From: Oscillospiraceae bacterium
GTDB taxonomy: Bacteria > Bacillota > Clostridia > Oscillospirales > Oscillospiraceae
Reading direction: 5' to 3'
DNA length: 64,000 nucleotides
Assembly (NCBI GenBank): GCA_021770845.1
Contig: JAETQF010000002.1
Span: forward strand, 1 to 64,000
In this document: positions 1 to 63,005 of the stretch, one piece after another
Layout of the letters: the number at the start of each line of letters is the position of its first letter
Position numbering within the stretch: the stretch's first letter is position 1
Made by a program: the position numbers and the translations under genes
The notes under the pieces: generated by a model
The model's database searches: none
What the model saw: the letters and a program-made list of their open reading frames with translations, nothing else
What the model was told of the DNA's origin: nothing

Positions 1-260
1 AAGCGTGTCTTTCGGTTCCTTTCTGCACGAGCAGAAAGGAACGCCCCCGGCAGGGGCGCTGAGCGCCGGTGGCGCTCGTCCAGCGCCGACCGAGCCGAAG
101 GCGAGACCCCCCTGCCACCCCCAGCGGCCCAGGGGGGCGCAGCCCCACCACCCCGGCGGTTGCCGGGCGGCCCCCCGGGGCCCACCGCCCCGCCCCACAC
201 CCGGCCGGTGTGCCCCCACCCCCGCAGGGGGTTCCCAGAAGGGGCCCCGCCCCATCTTTT
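1..260. repeat. Copy C of the composite intergenic repeat (inverted, cut by window edge)
   Basis: Positions 1-60 are the reverse complement of 23721-23778 and of 43704-43763, including a 28-bp hairpin at 15-42 with arms GTTCCTTTCTGC. Positions about 105-160 are the reverse complement of 43560-43615. The stretch at about 50-90 resembles the short repeat found beside dnaN (22291-22322) and dnaA (25891-25922). No credible gene lies before parA. The repeat runs off the left edge, so its full extent is unknown. Confidence 0.8.
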
Positions 261-8329: not shown

Positions 8330-8743
8330 ATGAACATCGCGCTGATGAGCCACGACGACAAAAAGGAATTGATGGTGCAGTTCTGCATTGCCTACTGCGG
8401 CATCCTCTCCAAGCACACGGTCTGCGCTACCCACGACACTGGCAGCCAGGTTGCCGAGGCCACCGGCCTGCCGGTGCAGCTGTTCCTGGCCCACGCCCAG
8501 GGGGGAAGCCAGCAGATCGGCGCCCGGATCGCCTACGATGAGATCGACATGGTGCTGTTTTTCAACGATCCCAACTCGGAGGATCTGGACAAGGATCTCC
8601 ACTATATCAACAACCTGTGCGATCAGCACAACGTCCCCATGGCCACCAACGCCGCCACCGCCGAGATGCTCATCCACGGGCTGGCCCGGGGCGACCTGGA
8701 CTGGCGGGAGATCATCAAGCCCACCAAGCCGCTCAAGGTTTGA
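8330..8743 (+). CDS. mgsA: Methylglyoxal synthase
   Basis: 137 residues. MSHDDKK at residues 7-13, THDTGSQ, HAQGGSQQIGARI and FFNDP...NVPMATNAATAEMLI match the MgsA active-site segments. It converts dihydroxyacetone phosphate to methylglyoxal and phosphate, a bypass of lower glycolysis. A type A hairpin repeat follows directly. Confidence 0.93.
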   Translation: MNIALMSHDDKKELMVQFCIAYCGILSKHTVCATHDTGSQVAEATGLPVQLFLAHAQGGSQQIGARIAYDEIDMVLFFNDPNSEDLDKDLHYINNLCDQHNVPMATNAATAEMLIHGLARGDLDWREIIKPTKPLKV

Positions 8744-8745
8744 TC

Positions 8746-8821
8746 TGTAGGGGAGGGGCTTGCCCCTCCCGCCGCACCGATATGCTCTCTGTTCCCGGGA
8801 GGGGCAAGCCCCTCCCCTACA
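8746..8821. repeat. Type A hairpin repeat, copy 1 (loop subfamily 1)
   Basis: The ends TGTAGGGGAGGGGCTTGCC and GGCAAGCCCCTCCCCTACA are inverted repeats around a loop containing ATGCTCTCTGTTCC. The same arms occur at 22207-22283, 32148-32224 and 62883-62960, and one arm occurs at 43646-43670. It lies between mgsA and hisS. Confidence 0.9.
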
Positions 8822-8823
8822 CA

Positions 8824-8852
8824 TTGCGTTGATTGTGCCATTAGTGTATAAC
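8824..8852 (+). promoter_or_regulatory. Possible promoter of hisS
   Basis: TTGCGT (8824-8829), 17 bp spacing and TATAAC (8847-8852) lie immediately after the hairpin repeat and before the hisS Shine-Dalgarno. Confidence 0.45.
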
Positions 8853-20809: not shown

Positions 20810-20863
20810 CTGCAGGACTCCTTTCTGAGGGTTGCCGCCCTCGGGGGGCCCTGCCACCATCCC

Positions 20864-22182: not shown

Positions 22183-22206
22183 ATTGATCTCCTTCATTTC
22201 ACGCAT

Positions 22207-22283
22207 TGTAGGGGAGGGGCTTGCCCCTCCCGCCTTGGCGGTGTGCTCTCTGTTCCCCGGGAGGGGCAAGCCCCTCCCCTACA
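22207..22283. repeat. Type A hairpin repeat, copy 2 (loop subfamily 1)
   Basis: Same inverted arms as 8746-8821 and nearly the same loop (GTGCTCTCTGTTCC). It lies between dnaN and yaaA inside the apparent operon, so its transcript would fold into a long GC hairpin. Confidence 0.9.
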
Positions 22284-22322: not shown

Positions 22323-23440
22323 TATTCTCCTGCCCTCAATCTCACAGGCAGCACCATATACAGGAAGGTGTCCTCCGCGCCCTCCGGGGGCAGCACCAGG
22401 CAGGGGGAGGTGGGAGTGTTCAGCTCCAGCCGTACCCGCTGGGCGGGGGCCGCCTTCACCGCGTCCATGAGAAACCGGTTGTTAAAGCCGATCTCCAGCC
22501 CCTTGCCGTCCCCGGAGATGGGGCAGCGGTCAAAGGCGGAGCCGATGGCGGTCTTGGAGGTGATGGACAGGGATCCGTCCTCAAACTTGCAGCGTAGCGG
22601 GCTTTTCAGCTTGTCGTTGATGATCAGGGACGCCCGGTCGATGGAGCGCTGAAGGTCGGCGGTGTCCGCCTCCAGGACAATGGAGTTGTTACGGGGGATG
22701 GTCTGCCGATAGTTGAGGAACTCCCCCTCCAGCCGGCGGGCCACCAGCAGGGTGCCGCCCATCTCAAAGGTGACGTGCCGATCCCCCTGGGTGATGGTCG
22801 CTGGCTCGTCGCTGTCGGCGCAGATCTTCTCCACCTCGCTGAGGGCCGCCCCGGGCACCACGAAGGACAGGGCCTCCGCCCCCTCCTGGGCCAGCTTGCC
22901 CCGGCGAAGGGCCAGCCGGTAGCCGTCCACCGCCACCATGGTGAGGCTGTCCCCCTCCGTCTCAAACAGGGCCCCGGTGTGGATGGGCCGGCTCTCGTTG
23001 TCGCTGACGGCAAAAATGGTCTGTGAGATCATAGAGCGCAGCTCCCCCTGGACAATGGTCAGCCCCGTTCCCTCGCTGACGGAGGGAAGCTCCGGGAAAT
23101 CCTCATCGCTGCTGCCCTTGATATCAAAGGAGGTGGGCCCGCACTGGATATGGACGGACAGATCCGCCCCGGCGGACAGGGACACCGCGTCGTCCGGCAT
23201 CCGCCGCAGGATCTCCCCCAGCAGCCGGGCGGACAGCACGATGGCCCCGGGCTCGGTTACGGCGGCCTCCACCCGGGTGATAATCCCCGTCTCCAGGTTA
23301 TAGCCGCTGATCCGCAGGCCGTTTCCCTCCGCCTCCAGCAGCACGCCCTCCAGAGCCTGAATGGTGCTCTTAGCGGCCACCACCCGGCCGGCGGTGGTAA
23401 CGGCGGTTTGCAGGATCGCTTTTTCACAGGAAAATTTCAT
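22322..23440 (-). CDS. dnaN: DNA polymerase III beta subunit (sliding clamp)
   Basis: 372 residues, normal length, with three clamp domains. MKFSCEKAILQTAV starts the first, and the C terminus ends EDTFLYMVLPVRL, the usual M-P-x-R/R-type ending of clamps. The ATG at 23440 follows AAAGGA. In Bacillus dnaN is about 190 bp from dnaA. Here the gap is 990 bp and contains repeats and DnaA-box-like sites. Confidence 0.96.
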   Translation of the reverse strand: MKFSCEKAILQTAVTTAGRVVAAKSTIQALEGVLLEAEGNGLRISGYNLETGIITRVEAAVTEPGAIVLSARLLGEILRRMPDDAVSLSAGADLSVHIQCGPTSFDIKGSSDEDFPELPSVSEGTGLTIVQGELRSMISQTIFAVSDNESRPIHTGALFETEGDSLTMVAVDGYRLALRRGKLAQEGAEALSFVVPGAALSEVEKICADSDEPATITQGDRHVTFEMGGTLLVARRLEGEFLNYRQTIPRNNSIVLEADTADLQRSIDRASLIINDKLKSPLRCKFEDGSLSITSKTAIGSAFDRCPISGDGKGLEIGFNNRFLMDAVKAAPAQRVRLELNTPTSPCLVLPPEGAEDTFLYMVLPVRLRAGE

Positions 23441-23518: not shown

Positions 23519-23664
23519 TGTGGAAAACTCCGCAACCCTATGCGTACCAGGGACTTTGCCCTCCACAGCGGGATCCGCAAAGCTTCCACAGCCTGTACTG
23601 GTTGAAAGTGGGTGGAGAAAGGCTCCACAGCCTTCCACAGCACAGGTCACAAAATTGTGGAAAA
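23519..23664. other. oriC: Candidate origin: cluster of DnaA-box-like sites between dnaN and dnaA
   Basis: TTTTCCACA occurs in reverse orientation at 23519-23527 and 23656-23664. Weaker forms ending in TCCACA are at 23559-23567, 23582-23590, 23621-23629 and 23631-23639. None is a perfect TTATCCACA. The location next to dnaN fits the downstream half of a Bacillus-like bipartite origin. A short AT-rich stretch sits at about 23481-23492. Confidence 0.6.
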
Positions 23665-23720
23665 GGGGGGATCCCCTTTTTCCGATTTTCCCCTTGTCCC
23701 AGGGGGAGGAGTGGCAGGGT

Positions 23721-24400
23721 GCGCCCTGCCGGGGGCGTTCCTTTCTGCTCGTGCAGAAAGGAACCGAAAGACACGCTTAGGGGGTGGCCACCGGTTCGAC
23801 TCCGGGCCGAAGGGCGGCCCTCCGCTCACAGGATGGCCATGGTGCTTCACGGGTGCTTATTGGGTGCGCTGTTTGGGGCGGGGCGGTTAGCCTGAGAGGC
23901 TTAGGCGCTGTAAAGAGAACCCGGGCTTGTCCGTGTCGCAGAAACGCAGGCCCGGTGTGGGCCGGAAAAAGAAGTGGAACCCATTCGTAACCCGCAATAG
24001 CCGGTCACTCCCCCACAACCTGAAATCGACGGTGCACCTCCCACCGCCCCGAAACATCCACCGCACCACCCAGGCGCCAACCGAGGGAACCACCCAGGGC
24101 CAGTCCCCACACACGGGCGGCAGCACTAATGGGAAGCCCACCAGTCCAGCCCCGCGCGCCGGTCACTTCCCACCCCGTAAAATCGGCGTGCCCTTGACCT
24201 TAACGGGGGTTCTTAGGGGGTGGCCAACCTGTGAGCGCAGGGCCGCCCTCTGGCCCGGAGTCGAACCGGTGGCCACCCCCTAAGCGCGCTCTTTGGTTAC
24301 TTTCTCTCGCGCGAGAGAAAGTAATGCCCCCCGCAGGGGCGCCCCCCGGGGGCACCCGGGCAAGGTCAAGCAGGGACTCCCCCTGCCGCCCTCCCCGTTG
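23721..24400. repeat. Copy A of the composite intergenic repeat, inside the dnaN-dnaA gap
   Basis: Modules in order: hairpin block 23721-23778; 73-bp-type unit 23776-23839; block 23848-24000; one about 158-bp unit from 24000; an inverted 73-bp unit 24212-24284; and a block with a 28-bp perfect palindrome at 24297-24324. The same order of modules recurs at 43704-44650. Open frames across it are repeat-derived, and I do not call genes here. Confidence 0.85.
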
Positions 24401-24430: not shown

Positions 24431-25753
24431 TTAATAAGCCGAATTTACCGCATTGGTGATGTCTCGGATGATTTCGGACAGCTCCGGCTGGGTTTTCATC
24501 ATCTTCTCCACCCGGTTGATGGAGTTGAGCACCGTGGTGTGGTGCCGCCCGCCGAACTGCTGGCCAATCTCCGACAGAGACAGCTGGGTCATCTCCCGGA
24601 TGATATACATGGCCACGTTCCGGGCCGTGCTGATCTCCTTGTTCTGGCTCTGGCCCCGGAGGGCGGCCCCGTCCAGCTCGTAGAACCGGGCCACCTCCTG
24701 GATGATGGTGTCCGCCGAGGGGAGAAAGTTCTCCTTGGCCCGGAGAATGTCCCGCACCGCCCGCACGGTGGTCTCCACGTCCACCTGGGCCCCCATCAGC
24801 TCCTGGAAGGCCATGATCTTGTTGACTACGCCCTCGATCTGCCGCACGTTGGAGGTGATGTTCTCCGCCACGTAGGACAGCACCGGGTCGGGCAGGGAGA
24901 TGCCCCGCTCCAGGGCCTTGTTCTTCAGCAGGGCCACCCGGGTCTCATAGTCCGGGGGCTGGATGTCGGCGGGCAGGCCCTGCTCGAACCGGGTTCTCAG
25001 CCGCTGCTCCAGCCGGAGCATCTCGTGAGGAGGCCGGTCGGAGGTGAACACAATCTGTTTCTTCTGCTCGTACAGGGTGTTAAAGGTGTGGAACAGCTCC
25101 TCCTCGCTGGAGTCCTTGCCGGCGATGAACTGCACGTCGTCCATGAGGAACAGATCCACGTTCCGGTACTTGTCCCGGAAGCCCTGCATATCAATGCCCC
25201 GGCGCAGGCTGCTGATGAGCTCGTTGACAAAGTCCTCGCTCTGAACATACAGGATCCGGAAGCCCGGATGGTCGTGCCGCACCTGATTGGCGATGGCGTG
25301 GAGCAGATGGGTCTTGCCCAGCCCCGACTGGCCATAGATGAACAGAGGGTTATAGATCCCCCCGGGCTCGTCCGCCACCTTCTTGGCGGCGGTGTAGGCA
25401 AACCGGTTGGTGGAGCCCACCACGAACCGCTCAAAGGTGTACCGCTCCGCGCCCTCCCCGCCGATAGGGGCGGGGGCGGCCTCCTGGGCCAGATAGGAGT
25501 CCCGCTCCTCGGGGAGCAGCAGGGCCACGTCCACGTCGAAGGAGAACAGCTCCCGGAGGGCCTGCTCCAGGTTGGCCTGAAACCGGCTGCGGATAATGTT
25601 CCGCTTGAAGTCGGTGGGGACGCACAGCACCAGCCGGGTGTCCTCCAGGGCCACCGCCTCCATGTCGCCGAACCAGGTTTCAATGGCCACGGCGGTCATT
25701 GTCCCCTCCATCAGGCTCTTTACTTTTTCCCAGACGTCGGCGGCAGATTTCAT
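24431..25753 (-). CDS. dnaA: Chromosomal replication initiator DnaA
   Basis: 440 residues. Domain I is at the N terminus. The AAA+ domain has Walker A GQSGLGKTH and Walker B LFLMDDVQF, with sensor 2 region TRFEQGL upstream of the lid. The C-terminal HTH reads FGGRHHTTVLNS, where most DnaA proteins have GGRDHTTV; the Asp is His404 here (codon 24542-24544). AGGAGG precedes the ATG. A promoter with an adjacent TTTTCCACA box lies upstream, consistent with autoregulation. Confidence 0.97.
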   Translation of the reverse strand: MKSAADVWEKVKSLMEGTMTAVAIETWFGDMEAVALEDTRLVLCVPTDFKRNIIRSRFQANLEQALRELFSFDVDVALLLPEERDSYLAQEAAPAPIGGEGAERYTFERFVVGSTNRFAYTAAKKVADEPGGIYNPLFIYGQSGLGKTHLLHAIANQVRHDHPGFRILYVQSEDFVNELISSLRRGIDMQGFRDKYRNVDLFLMDDVQFIAGKDSSEEELFHTFNTLYEQKKQIVFTSDRPPHEMLRLEQRLRTRFEQGLPADIQPPDYETRVALLKNKALERGISLPDPVLSYVAENITSNVRQIEGVVNKIMAFQELMGAQVDVETTVRAVRDILRAKENFLPSADTIIQEVARFYELDGAALRGQSQNKEISTARNVAMYIIREMTQLSLSEIGQQFGGRHHTTVLNSINRVEKMMKTQPELSEIIRDITNAVNSAY

Positions 25754-32115: not shown

Positions 32116-32147
32116 ACTAAAGCCGCATTGACCGGGTGAAGACGCGC

Positions 32148-32224
32148 TGTAGGGGAGGGGCTTGCCCCTCCCGCTTTGAAGGGTCAGAGACCCTTTCCCC
32201 GGGAGGGGCAAGCCCCTCCCCTAC
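32148..32224. repeat. Type A hairpin repeat, copy 3 (loop subfamily 2), in the rplU leader
   Basis: Same arms as the other type A copies. The loop (TTTGAAGGGTCAGAGACCC) matches the reverse complement of the loop in 62883-62960 and differs from copies 1 and 2. It lies between promoter and rplU, so it is transcribed. Confidence 0.9.
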
Positions 32225-42218: not shown

Positions 42219-42248
42219 TGGTTCCTTTTTCTCTCGAGAAAAAGGAAC
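42219..42248. repeat. Perfect palindrome after the HlyD-like gene
   Basis: TTCCTTTTTCTC and its complement GAGAAAAAGGAA around a central CGAG/TCGA form a stand-alone hairpin related in style to those at 23737-23764, 24297-24324 and 35134-35165. Confidence 0.6.
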
Positions 42249-43511
42249 TCAGCGCACCACCTTGCCGTCGTAGATGTCGGAGGAATTCAGGATCACCTCG
42301 TCCCCCGCCCGCAGCCGCTTGGCGGCGGAGGGATCCACCGGGCGCACCAGGTAGAAGTTCTCGTCGGTGTACAGTATGTCCACCTCCCGCCCCCAGGACT
42401 GGGAGCGCTCCACGGTGTAGACCTTGTAGCGGTTCACCGTCCGGGTGGAGCCGTCCTCCTGCTCCTCCTCCACCGTCTCCACCCGCAGGGCCTTTCGGGG
42501 GATGCGGATGCCCTCCAGGTGGTGGATCACCACGTCCACCGCCTGCACCCGCAGCAGGGTGGTGTCGGACAGATGGGTGCGGCAGGAGAAGATGGCCAGG
42601 GTCTGCTCCCCCTCCAGGGACACCCGCTCCAGCACCATGGGGATCTGGCCGTAGTAGTCGCCGGAGAAGGTGAGGGAGTATGTTTTGCCGGATTGCAGCC
42701 CGGTGTCGGTGCCGGGGAGGAGGGCGGCGAAGTACCAGGTGGAGCCGGTGATCAGCTTGCCCACCGGCCCGGAAACAGGAGCGGGGGTCTGGGAGAGCAG
42801 ATCAGACAGGGACTGGGCGGTGAGGCCGTCCAGCCGGCTGGGGTTGATAAGGCCCTCCCAGCCGTCCACGGTGCCGGAGAACACCCCGGCGGCGGGGGTG
42901 TACACCACCTGGGCCACCTGGTTCAGCGAGGCGTTGAGCTGGGCCAGCTGCTCCTGCTTGCTCTGGATGAGCTGGCTGAGCTGTCCGGCGGCGCTGCCGT
43001 CGCCGTAGGCGAAGTCCCGCTTGAACACCATGGTGCGCAGATTGAGGGCGCAGTCGTCTAGGGTGGTGAGATCCCCCTGGGCGGTGAGGGATCGCAGGGC
43101 GGTGATGGAGTCGAGCACCTGGCCGTCCAGCCGGGAGGCGTCCCCCGTCTGGGTGCGGTCGTCCAGGGCGTACTGGAGCTGCTCAATCTCGGCGGTGAGG
43201 GTGCGGATGGCCTGCCGGGTGGTGAGGGCGGCGGAATCGGTGTAGAGCAGGGCGGCGGCCTGTCCGGCGGCGGCCTTCTCCCCCTCCCCCAGGATGTGAT
43301 CCACATAGCTGCCCCCGGCGTCGGGCAGGATCGTCTCGTCCCGCACCAGGATGCCGCTGGCCTCCATGCCCACGTCCTGGGTATAGGCGTAGGCCCGGGT
43401 GGTGACCAGGGGCTCCTCCCAGCCCCGGACGAAGTAGACGGCCAGGTAGACCGCCACCCCCAGGCAGAGGATGGCGATCATGACCTTGGTGGCAAGGGTG
43501 CTTTCTCTCAT
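42249..43511 (-). CDS. HlyD-like membrane-anchored protein near the division cluster
   Basis: 420 residues. An N-terminal membrane helix (about 9-28) leads into an outside region with a biotinyl-lipoyl-like half (GILVRDETILPDAGGSYVDHILGEGEKAAAGQAAALLY), a helical coiled-coil segment, and an adaptor-like C-terminal part. The layout is that of HlyD/membrane-fusion proteins. In related Clostridia such a gene is often found by sepF-yggS. No exporter is adjacent, so its partner is unknown. Confidence 0.75.
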   Translation of the reverse strand: MRESTLATKVMIAILCLGVAVYLAVYFVRGWEEPLVTTRAYAYTQDVGMEASGILVRDETILPDAGGSYVDHILGEGEKAAAGQAAALLYTDSAALTTRQAIRTLTAEIEQLQYALDDRTQTGDASRLDGQVLDSITALRSLTAQGDLTTLDDCALNLRTMVFKRDFAYGDGSAAGQLSQLIQSKQEQLAQLNASLNQVAQVVYTPAAGVFSGTVDGWEGLINPSRLDGLTAQSLSDLLSQTPAPVSGPVGKLITGSTWYFAALLPGTDTGLQSGKTYSLTFSGDYYGQIPMVLERVSLEGEQTLAIFSCRTHLSDTTLLRVQAVDVVIHHLEGIRIPRKALRVETVEEEQEDGSTRTVNRYKVYTVERSQSWGREVDILYTDENFYLVRPVDPSAAKRLRAGDEVILNSSDIYDGKVVR

Positions 43512-43759
43512 AGTAGGGTTCCTTTCTTTCTCTGGGGCGGGCCCCCTGAACCCCCCGAAGGGGGAGGGGTGGTGGGGCTGCGCCCCCCTGGCCCGCTGGG
43601 GGTGGCAGGGTTGCGCCCTGCCGGGTGCGTTCCGTTTCCGGAGCCTGTAGGGGAGGGGCTTGCCCCTCCCGTGCCGGTTTCTTGCCCGGTTTTCGGGCCC
43701 CGGTGCGCCCTGCCGGGGGCGTTCCTTTCTGCTCGTGCAGAAAGGAACCGAAAGACACG

Positions 43760-43832
43760 CTTAGGGGGTGGCCACCGGTTCGACTCCGAGCCGAAGGGCG
43801 GCCCTGCGCTCACAGGATGGCCACCCCCTAAG
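43760..43832 (+). repeat. 73-bp unit with 15-bp terminal inverted repeats
   Basis: Ends are CTTAGGGGGTGGCCA and TGGCCACCCCCTAAG. The core contains a tRNA T-arm-like segment (CCGGTTCGACTCC at A1; one base differs here). An intact inverted copy lies at 24212-24284 and a right-truncated one at 23776-23839. Confidence 0.85.
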
Positions 43833-44147
43833 AACCCCCTTTTACGGGGGCCGTCAGATCGGGGGGCTTTCTGTGACCCTTCCGGCGCGGAGGTGATACG
43901 GACGCGGGGGCCCCTGTCGCCGCTGCCGCTGAGGGTGTGGGTACTGAGAAGTGGGTGGGATCCACGTCAGATGCGCCTGGGTGTCGGGTGGTGCTTACGG
44001 GTGCGTATTGGGTGCGCTGCTTGTGGCGGGGCGGTTAGCCTGAGAAGCTCAGGCGCTGTAAAGAGAACCCCATGTTTTCAGTGTCTGCGAAAGTCAGGCC
44101 CGGTGTGGGCCGGAAAAAGAAGGACAGCCCATTCGTCACCCGCAATA

Positions 44148-44464
44148 GCCGGTCACTCTCCCACAACCTGAAATCGACGGTGCACCTCCCACCGCCCCTG
44201 AACACCCACCGCACCCCCCAGGCGCCAACCGAGGGCACCGCCTGGGGGTTGTCCCCACACACGAGCGGCAGCACTAATGGGAAGCCCACCAGTCCAGCCC
44301 CCGCGCGCCGATCACTCCCCCACCCCTCGAAATCGACGGTGCACCTCCCACCGCCCCGAACGTCCGGCGCACCACCCAGGCGCCAACCGAGGGCACCACC
44401 CAGGGGTTGTCCCCACACACGGGCGGCAGCACCAATGGGGAGTCCACCAGTCCAGCCCCCCCGC
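44148..44464 (+). repeat. Two tandem 158/159-bp direct repeats
   Basis: Unit 1 spans 44148-44306 and unit 2 44307-44464, with the start of a third unit at 44465. Each contains GAAATCGACGGTGCACCTCC. Copy A has one unit (24000-24157) plus the start of another. Confidence 0.88.
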
Positions 44465-44676
44465 GCCGGTCACTCCCCCGCCACGTATTCCAAGGAAAGA
44501 AGGGGGTACATAGGGGCGCAGCCCCTATGCGCGCTCTTTGGTTACTTTCTCTCGCGTGAGAGAAAGTAACCCCCCGCGGAGCGGCGCCCCCCCGGGGGCA
44601 CCCGGGCGAGGTCAAGCAGGGGCTCCCCCCTGCCCCCCCACGGGGGCCGGGGGGAATCGGGGCAGGGGGCTCCCCC

Positions 44677-44922
44677 CTACCCCTCCAACTCAACCGGATG
44701 CTCCGGTGCAATGGTGGAGATGGCGTGCTTGTAGATGACCTGCTGCTTGCCGTCGGAGGTCACCACCACCACGTAGGGATCGAAGGCGGTGATCACCCCC
44801 CGGAGCTGGTAGCCGTTCATCAGAAAGACGGTGACCCGGGCGGCGGCGCGGCGGGCGGCGGACAGGAAGGCGTCCTGAATGTTGGGCTGCTTGTTGACGG
44901 AAATGGTGGATGTAAGGCTCAT
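44677..44922 (-). CDS. hfq: RNA chaperone Hfq
   Basis: 81 residues from the ATG at 44922, preceded by AGGAG. Sm1 (QDAFLSAARRAAARVTVFLMNGYQLRGVITAFD) and Sm2 (YKHAISTI) motifs are present. It forms hexamers that bind small RNAs and mRNA tails. It follows miaA, the common arrangement. The coding sequence ends directly at composite repeat copy B. Confidence 0.94.
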   Translation of the reverse strand: MSLTSTISVNKQPNIQDAFLSAARRAAARVTVFLMNGYQLRGVITAFDPYVVVVTSDGKQQVIYKHAISTIAPEHPVELEG

Positions 44923-62853: not shown

Positions 62854-62882
62854 GAACATACCCGCGCCATAAAAAATGTATG

Positions 62883-62960
62883 TGTAGGGGAGGGGCTTGC
62901 CCCTCCCGGGGCAAGGGTTTTTGACCCTTCAAGGCGGGAGGGGCAAGCCCCTCCCCTACA
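62883..62960. repeat. Type A hairpin repeat, copy 4 (loop subfamily 2, inverted)
   Basis: Same arms as the other copies. The loop is the inverted form of the one in the rplU leader (32148-32224). It lies between psuK and psuG in the operon. Confidence 0.9.
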
Positions 62961-63005
62961 GACAAATAATAGAACCAATACCAATATAATCAGGAGGTTT
63001 TACCC

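Follow-up and report, generated by a model that had tools for sequence, protein, structure and literature searches.

The gap between dnaN (22325-23440, minus strand) and dnaA (24434-25753, minus strand), both confirmed with NCBIfam models, measures 993 bp in the genome studied here (G000), which raises the question of what fills it. A first-pass annotation of the window, by which we mean the whole 64,000-nucleotide stretch of DNA analysed, had described a modular composite repeat in this gap and at two other loci, and had offered three readings: a non-autonomous mobile element, a structural chromosomal element, or an RNA gene family. The window is the start of contig C28 in a draft of 48 contigs that is 82% complete.

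Modules of the window copies

The repeat is not a chance resemblance, since matches within the window reach 98% over 122 bp and 89% over 300 bp, and our module map confirmed that ordered modules are shared by the regions 23721-24400 and 43704-44650. The copy between dnaN and dnaA (23716..24365, plus strand) is a short form without a gene cassette. It begins with an L end (23724-23778) bearing a left terminal hairpin of the 'a' type, GTTCCTTTCTGC..GCAGAAAGGAAC (23737..23764, plus strand), followed on the same strand by a truncated subterminal 73-bp hairpin unit (23776..23839), a 151-bp arm block H (23849..23999) and one 158-bp arm unit (24000..24158). The right arm contributes a subterminal 73-bp hairpin inverted relative to the left one (24212..24284, minus strand) and an R end (24284-24352), where the right terminal hairpin is of the 'b' type and contains TTACTTTCTCTCGCGCGAGAGAAAGTAA (24295..24324, plus strand). 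The second copy (43700..44640, plus strand) is also a short form, with two 158-bp units. Its L end (43708-43762) and R end (44529-44597) carry the left (43721..43748) and right (44542..44571) terminal hairpins, and between them lie a subterminal 73-bp hairpin (43760..43832), a 164-bp arm block G (43833..43996), the 151-bp block H (43997..44147), two tandem 158/159-bp units (44148..44463) and a short hairpin block before R (44464-44528); hairpins, arm blocks and tandem units are all mapped on the plus strand. The vicinity of the G-H junction is where longer copies hold their gene cassette. Module order is thus kept between the two copies as first described, but not every module is: the 164-bp block is absent from the dnaA-dnaN copy, and the block adjoining R is an inverted 73-bp unit there and another short hairpin in the second copy.

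The inverted first modules reported at positions 1-160 proved to be the left end of a third element (1..119, minus strand) broken by the contig edge. Within it, positions 1-55 form an L end in inverted orientation with 100% complementarity to the other two window copies. Judging by synteny with a related genome (G060, L097), the rest of this element lies where contig C32 ends (L066:3490-4525). Contigs of G000 end inside elements at both ends of C28, at the end of C32 and at the start of C9. The element accounts for these assembly breaks; copy number in the draft is probably an underestimate and repeat-spanning joins need care.

Two further repeats were seen in the window. One is a second family, TGTAGGGGAGGGGCTTGCCCCTCCC, often in inverted pairs about 25 nt apart (8743-8824, 22201-22283, 32142-32224, 43640-43676 and 62876-62967), with a core resembling the GI REP seed of P. 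fluorescens as given in PMC3116915; no Y1 transposase was found in the draft. The other is a solo hairpin, GTTCCTTTTTCTCTCGAGAAAAAGGAAC, at 42221-42248, directly behind the stop of an ORF at 42249-43511 (minus strand), which resembles the terminal hairpins and has a like counterpart behind the dnaN stop in G027 (L178:2623).

Architecture of the element

A model of the terminal ends, run on 20 own and 40 relative sources, returned 109 ends forming 36 inward-facing pairs. Each element consists of two inverted arms that are built alike, face each other and meet centrally. From the centre outward an arm comprises one to three units of about 150 bp, a subterminal hairpin that mostly starts with CTTAGGGG and ends with CCCCTAAG, a short conserved spacer, a terminal palindromic hairpin and a GC-rich outer inverted repeat. 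The inverted ends span 85 nt and are 88% complementary. Three main types of terminal hairpin occur (a, ..CTGC/GCAG..; b, ..CTCTC/GAGAG..; c, ..TCCC/GGGA..), and the 36 paired elements divide into 18 a/b, 7 b/b, 5 b/c and 6 with at least one end untyped. They also fall into two size classes. The short class (22/36; 518-927 bp), to which both complete window copies belong, has no AT-rich centre, its lowest 120-nt GC being 0.50 or more, and the long class (13/36; 1041-1406 bp) has one, with a lowest 120-nt GC of 0.26-0.40. The remaining pair (L123) is 778 bp long, with a lowest 120-nt GC of 0.39 and an ORF with an HTH domain.

Among the copies of G000 every internal gap in the arms is 1 bp, variable columns are spread across the three codon positions and every frame has stops in some copies; the arms therefore look non-coding. 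The first-pass view that neither strand looks convincingly coding suits the arms, but longer copies elsewhere do contain genes, in their central cassette. None of the copies contains a recognised transposase or recombinase gene, and the ORFs listed for the 36 paired elements (those under 58% GC) reach at most 147 aa. Nor was an autonomous transposon with shared ends noticed in the fetched loci, which derive from draft genomes and for which PF01797 was the transposase family searched.

The gene cassette

The cassette is a roughly 500-bp AT-rich centre with two small divergent ORFs pointing outward into the arms; it escaped the first-pass annotation, both complete window copies being cassette-free. 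The second, divergent ORF is present in 13/13 long pairs, which are not 13 independent sites, several being one site in different species. Four types of cassette were distinguished: an XRE protein with a DUF6809-like protein of 84-87 aa, XRE with an RHH-like protein, an Arc/RHH-like protein with one of 53-62 aa, and XRE with a 57-aa ORF without a match. The Pfam HTH_3 cut-off was passed in 10/13 long pairs (by a tested protein or one identical to it) and by every XRE protein tested, and the L071 protein is 98.5% identical to a tested one that passes. L064 and L098 gave PHROGs Arc-like repressor matches (E about 1e-4), Pfam RHH_1 and DUF6809 matches stayed below their cut-offs, and the RHH63 type had weak PHROGs Arc-like matches alone, with no Pfam RHH match. 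One ORF of the cassette is thus likely a DNA-binding regulator of the XRE type; the alternative of a ribbon-helix-helix or Arc-like regulator is more weakly supported.

With a simple Nei-Gojobori script, in which distant pairs were extended ungapped and not relied on, dN/dS was 0.12-0.44 in six DUF6809-like pairs, 0.12-0.14 in three close XRE pairs (0.16-0.31 if a different query was used to extract them) and 0.39 for YKEMY; values for RHH75 (0.62-0.81, three pairs) and RHH63 (0.49 and 0.82) indicate weak constraint. Judged from these substitution ratios, most of the compared cassette-gene pairs look constrained. Palindromes in the spacer exceeded all 60 mononucleotide shuffles in 5/14 cassettes, the best being a 41-bp palindrome spanning a TATAAT box in L060.

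The cassette genes are not exclusive to the element, as DUF6809-like and YKEMY-like genes occur without an end within 1.5 kb: ends were found within that distance at 13/29 fetched DUF6809-like and 2/30 fetched YKEMY-like loci. A search of phage references with the DUF6809-like and YKEMY proteins gave no match at E 0.001; for the XRE protein the matches were to distant regulators, in 4 plasmid records. A known defence system was considered and rejected, two XRE proteins giving HTH-type matches only and the other three proteins none.

Distribution among genomes and phages

The three loci first described are real, but many more copies exist. In G000 there were 77 matches to the copy at 43.7 kb (40/77 candidates scored), making up 24 stretches and, once the halves of the broken element are joined, 23 sites. 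With at most 8 candidates scored per genome, 25/59 relatives had a match, 23/36 within the genus and 2/23 outside it, so the repeat is confined neither to the window loci nor to a single assembly. Both matches outside the genus are weak: G042 has an end-type hairpin adjoining another hairpin (L055, L297; judged by eye), and the end model found no end in L055 or in G039 (L052). A scan of named genomes with the end pattern gave 40 stretches in records titled Oscillospiraceae, Clostridiales, Bacillota or plain 'bacterium', for which we infer a gut origin. With such records as the matching ones, the earlier comparison with the short dnaA-dnaN interval of Bacillus is beside the point. A DNA search of plasmid and phage reference collections gave no element match at E 1e-5, and the literature matches listed, whose coverage leaves out most subscription papers and bioRxiv preprints, included no account of the element.

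Among the viral contigs of IMG/VR a first, narrower end pattern found nothing, and a loose hairpin pattern found six stretches on five contigs. An arm is carried by L291, L294 and L296, and the neighbours of the arm in L291 are phage terminase, head, portal and tail-sheath genes. A search with the head protein yielded 46 relatives, these three included, and in 26 of them both the terminase and a small structural gene could be placed. Five of the 26 viral contigs have an arm between the two genes, found by hairpin search in L306-L308 and confirmed by eye in L309 and L312, the last of which the hairpin search did not detect. L307 and L308 have an identical arm at the same positions, and L312 shows a c-type end and a subterminal loop of the genus kind. 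The same interval measures 34-42 bp in three relatives (L310, L311 and L314, with L310 the same as L311), 99 bp in one contig and 2.0-2.8 kb in 17, with no hairpin found nearby. These arms between phage terminase and structural genes are the strongest sign of horizontal mobility.

A bare GGTTACTTT-N-AAAGTAAC hairpin with no clear arm around it was seen at L292:10340, L293:2051 and L295:1553. The terminal motif may thus have a wider distribution than the element itself.

Presence and absence at individual sites

We compared 22 of the 23 sites (L073a was left out) with those of G060, the closest relative found, whose flanks are mostly 90-97% identical and down to 88%. An element or part of one is present in G060 at 13/22 sites (L060, L061, L063, L064, L066b, L069-L072, L073b and L074-L076), with L063, L070 and L076 judged by one flank only, at contig ends. 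Seven sites lack it: 43.7 kb, L065, L066a, L067, L068, L077 and dnaA-dnaN. The length left between the flanks is 17-46 bp at 43.7 kb (20 bp between matching flanks), L065, L067 and L077, and 134 bp at L068; L066a and dnaA-dnaN hold otherwise different sequence in G060 and so are not clean empty sites. At the L062 site G060 keeps the outer flanks around a single hybrid hairpin, left half c and right half b, and L059 is the sole site of the 22 without a clear call. Conversely, the own genome is empty at 20849-20851 of the window, where G060, G028 and G036 have elements or parts. Contents change as well: the L060 site holds an XRE/DUF6809-like cassette in the own genome vs an XRE/RHH-like one in G060 and G002 (L117, L094). 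No clean target-site duplication was found at the sites inspected by eye.

With 13 of the judged sites common to G060, movement is slow. The two loss-like junctions, at 20.85 kb and L062, both fall within the ends, each at a short repeat of its own. Structure-driven deletion accounts for this better than a fixed-site recombinase would, and both junctions could be products of passive deletion. For 12 of the 13 own paired elements the best-scoring partner is a further own element, by a score that adds up the matching pieces and so is higher for copies with many units, and seven of the 13 have a paired counterpart at the same site in G060.

The shared sites and the likeness of copies within a genome raise the possibility that these are long-lived, hardly mobile loci, reshaped by gene conversion, deletion from hairpin to hairpin and exchange of cassettes through recombination between arms. 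The left end at the L062 site, of type c in G017, a in G000 and a c/b hybrid in G060, would suit such a history. We nonetheless regard it as unlikely, given the seven sites without an element in G060, a partial element at L077 found in G000 only among five genomes (the other four having 3-46 bp there), and phage relatives both with and without the arm.

The subterminal hairpin and the RNA reading

Pattern extraction gave 73 distinct subterminal hairpins, and 23/109 ends yielded none. An alignment was made of 41/73, a selection by eye within the 71-76-nt class (the remaining 32 are other variants or failed extractions), and 10 test pairs were named from the consensus fold. Across the 41 sequences, 94.1% of cells pair at these positions vs 85.7% when shuffled, and 7/10 pairs are changed on both sides, a number reached by 7/500 shuffles. 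Covariation was 0.284 vs 0.169 in shuffles (0/500 reach it) and at most 0.121 when slid, in a shuffle control that leaves relatedness in place; further pair types showed no excess (12 vs 10.9 shuffled; 148/500 reach). RNAalifold alone proposed 14 pairs, and a double change was present in 8 of these. The hairpin also contains two stretches that hardly vary, GGTTCG and GCTCACAGG. The search for compensatory changes was therefore rewarded in this unit, and the structure of the subterminal hairpin is under constraint. A tRNA-like nature of the 73-bp unit was rejected, ARAGORN finding no tRNA in the window and the T-arm-like stretch lying at the wrong end.

If the family were one of structured RNAs, its arms would be long 3' tails or antisense pairs that regulate transcription or translation of the neighbouring genes and are kept for that role. 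The compensating hairpin with its conserved motifs is in keeping with this, as are the strong hairpins predicted when four end fragments were folded (z -5.1 to -6.6) and the co-directional flanking genes at 16 of the 19 own sites for which both flanks could be called with a simple GC3 heuristic. However, the hairpins are laid out as inverted termini, so that one is in sense on each strand; copies are present or absent between species whose flanks are 90-97% identical; arms also lie in phage operons; and a 143-nt stretch of the 158-bp unit folds about as well as shuffles on either strand (z -0.7 and -0.9). Rfam gave no match at gathering score over the whole window, and over 43600-44700 one miRNA match far below cut-off (E 0.47). 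The RNA gene family first suggested thus has a conserved, compensating hairpin in its favour, but the layout of the termini and the empty Rfam result speak against it, and we consider it improbable. The arms may be no more than 3' tails to the cassette genes.

The gap between dnaN and dnaA

A dnaN match was present in 41 genomes including the own one, and 30 loci were fetched. The dnaA-dnaN gap contains an element or arm in 3/30 (G000, 993 bp; G005, 629 bp; G028, 524 bp), and no end was found in the other 27. A reading as a structural chromosomal element of the origin is accordingly unsupported. In G060, whose dnaN is 96% identical, the gap is 368 bp and holds no element and a different short repeat. 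Two DnaA-box-like sites, TTTTCCACA (23519-23527 and 23656-23664, minus strand), lie outside the element on the dnaN side. The copy in the gap, one more insertion, is not thought to act in the initiation of replication. The element accounts for some large and variable dnaA-dnaN gaps, which could be misread as origin features.

In the G060 gap (L171) an inverted pair of the GGGGCAAGC / GCTTGCCCC type was seen in the element's place, which makes the gap look like a spot where insertions are tolerated.

Discussion

What fills the gap probably belongs to a family of non-autonomous mobile elements that occupy intergenic sites and have their centre of distribution in one Oscillospiraceae-type genus. 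Sites without an element in G060, the presence of many copies across species and the arms in phage operons together make this the best supported of the three readings first offered. Under such a mechanism, an enzyme supplied in trans would act on the structured ends, the element would insert into intergenic spaces of chromosomes and phages, and deletion between short direct repeats of the terminal hairpins would remove it, while recombination would homogenise the copies among themselves. The cassette would be an autoregulated module, phage-repressor-like or addiction-like, that aids persistence of the element. Only tentatively would we go further and propose a new class of self-regulated miniature mobile element, with the inverted structured arms as its moving frame, in which the swapped gene pair is the element's own control or addiction module and frames shuttle between Oscillospiraceae-type bacteria and their phages by means of a trans-acting enzyme with the terminal or subterminal hairpins as its target.

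Least probable of all, in our view, is a REPIN or BIME type, in which a Y1 (RAYT) transposase from elsewhere in the cell would mobilise the terminal hairpins as REP sequences: the intergenic location, the doublet of inverted palindromic ends (36 inward-facing pairs), the solo hairpins that follow stop codons (at window 42221 and, after dnaN, at L178:2623) and the hairpin-centre junction at the L062 site of G060 speak for it, but the own genome, 82% complete, has 0 matches to Y1_Tnp (PF01797), a Y1 match shows no association with the element across G001-G024 (4/9 genomes with at least 5 element matches vs 4/10 element-free ones), and the elements may carry genes and are several times longer than the ~70-bp doublets described in PMC3116915.

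The mobile-element reading, which we prefer, invites comparison with known systems. Like a MITE, the element has terminal inverted repeats, occupies about 23 sites and contains no recognised transposase; a clean target-site duplication, as expected of a MITE, was not found at the sites inspected by eye. MITE-like and REPIN-like repeats are usually described as being without genes. Integrons hold interchangeable small genes adjoining a folded DNA site in their cassettes. Unlike integrons, however, our elements show no integrase and no array, and the cassette sits between inverted arms at many scattered sites. Set against a type II toxin-antitoxin or phage-repressor module, the cassette shows HTH_3 above cut-off in most cases and weak Arc-like matches.

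BOX repeats of Streptococcus pneumoniae, as described in PMC3049150, are modular and intergenic, vary in the number of units and are inferred to be parasitic and slow to insert; there the repeat itself makes up the ORFs, whose only matches are hypothetical proteins from mitis-group streptococci. Our element shares the modular plan on which we compare the two, with named modules, variable unit number and ORFs in large copies; unlike BOX as described there, it has its own ORFs in a separate AT-rich cassette, these are interchangeable, and most of the regulators match DNA-binding families. BrickBuilt of Porphyromonas gingivalis is described in PMC4596501 as a MITE containing a minisatellite, made up of a leader, tandem units and a tail and present in 19 copies. 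It is intergenic and transposase-free, occupies sites that are partly conserved and partly variable, and has variable or unclear target duplications and 12-bp terminal inverted repeats resembling IS5-family ISs. The tandem units, intergenic location, partly conserved and partly variable sites and lack of an internal transposase are common to both, whereas palindromic hairpin termini, the gene cassette and the failure to find an IS partner set our element apart from BrickBuilt as that source portrays it. REPINs, according to PMC3116915, are short doublets with about 70 bp between invariant 16-mers and are tied to Y1 transposases. They resemble our element in having two inverted palindromic ends and a spacer, an extragenic position, solo ends and excision junctions inside the ends; unlike them, ours measures 0.5-1.4 kb, may carry genes and has no Y1 tie.

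By analogy, then, the element appears to work like REPINs, BOX repeats and MITEs of the BrickBuilt type. We claim no membership in REPIN, BOX or MITE; the novel part is the cassette within a hairpin-bounded frame, which repeatedly carries conserved, exchangeable pairs of small genes in several species, with arms also at a phage locus. This makes it a tractable system in which to ask how gene-carrying miniature elements move without a transposase of their own, and whether their tiny regulators serve the element.
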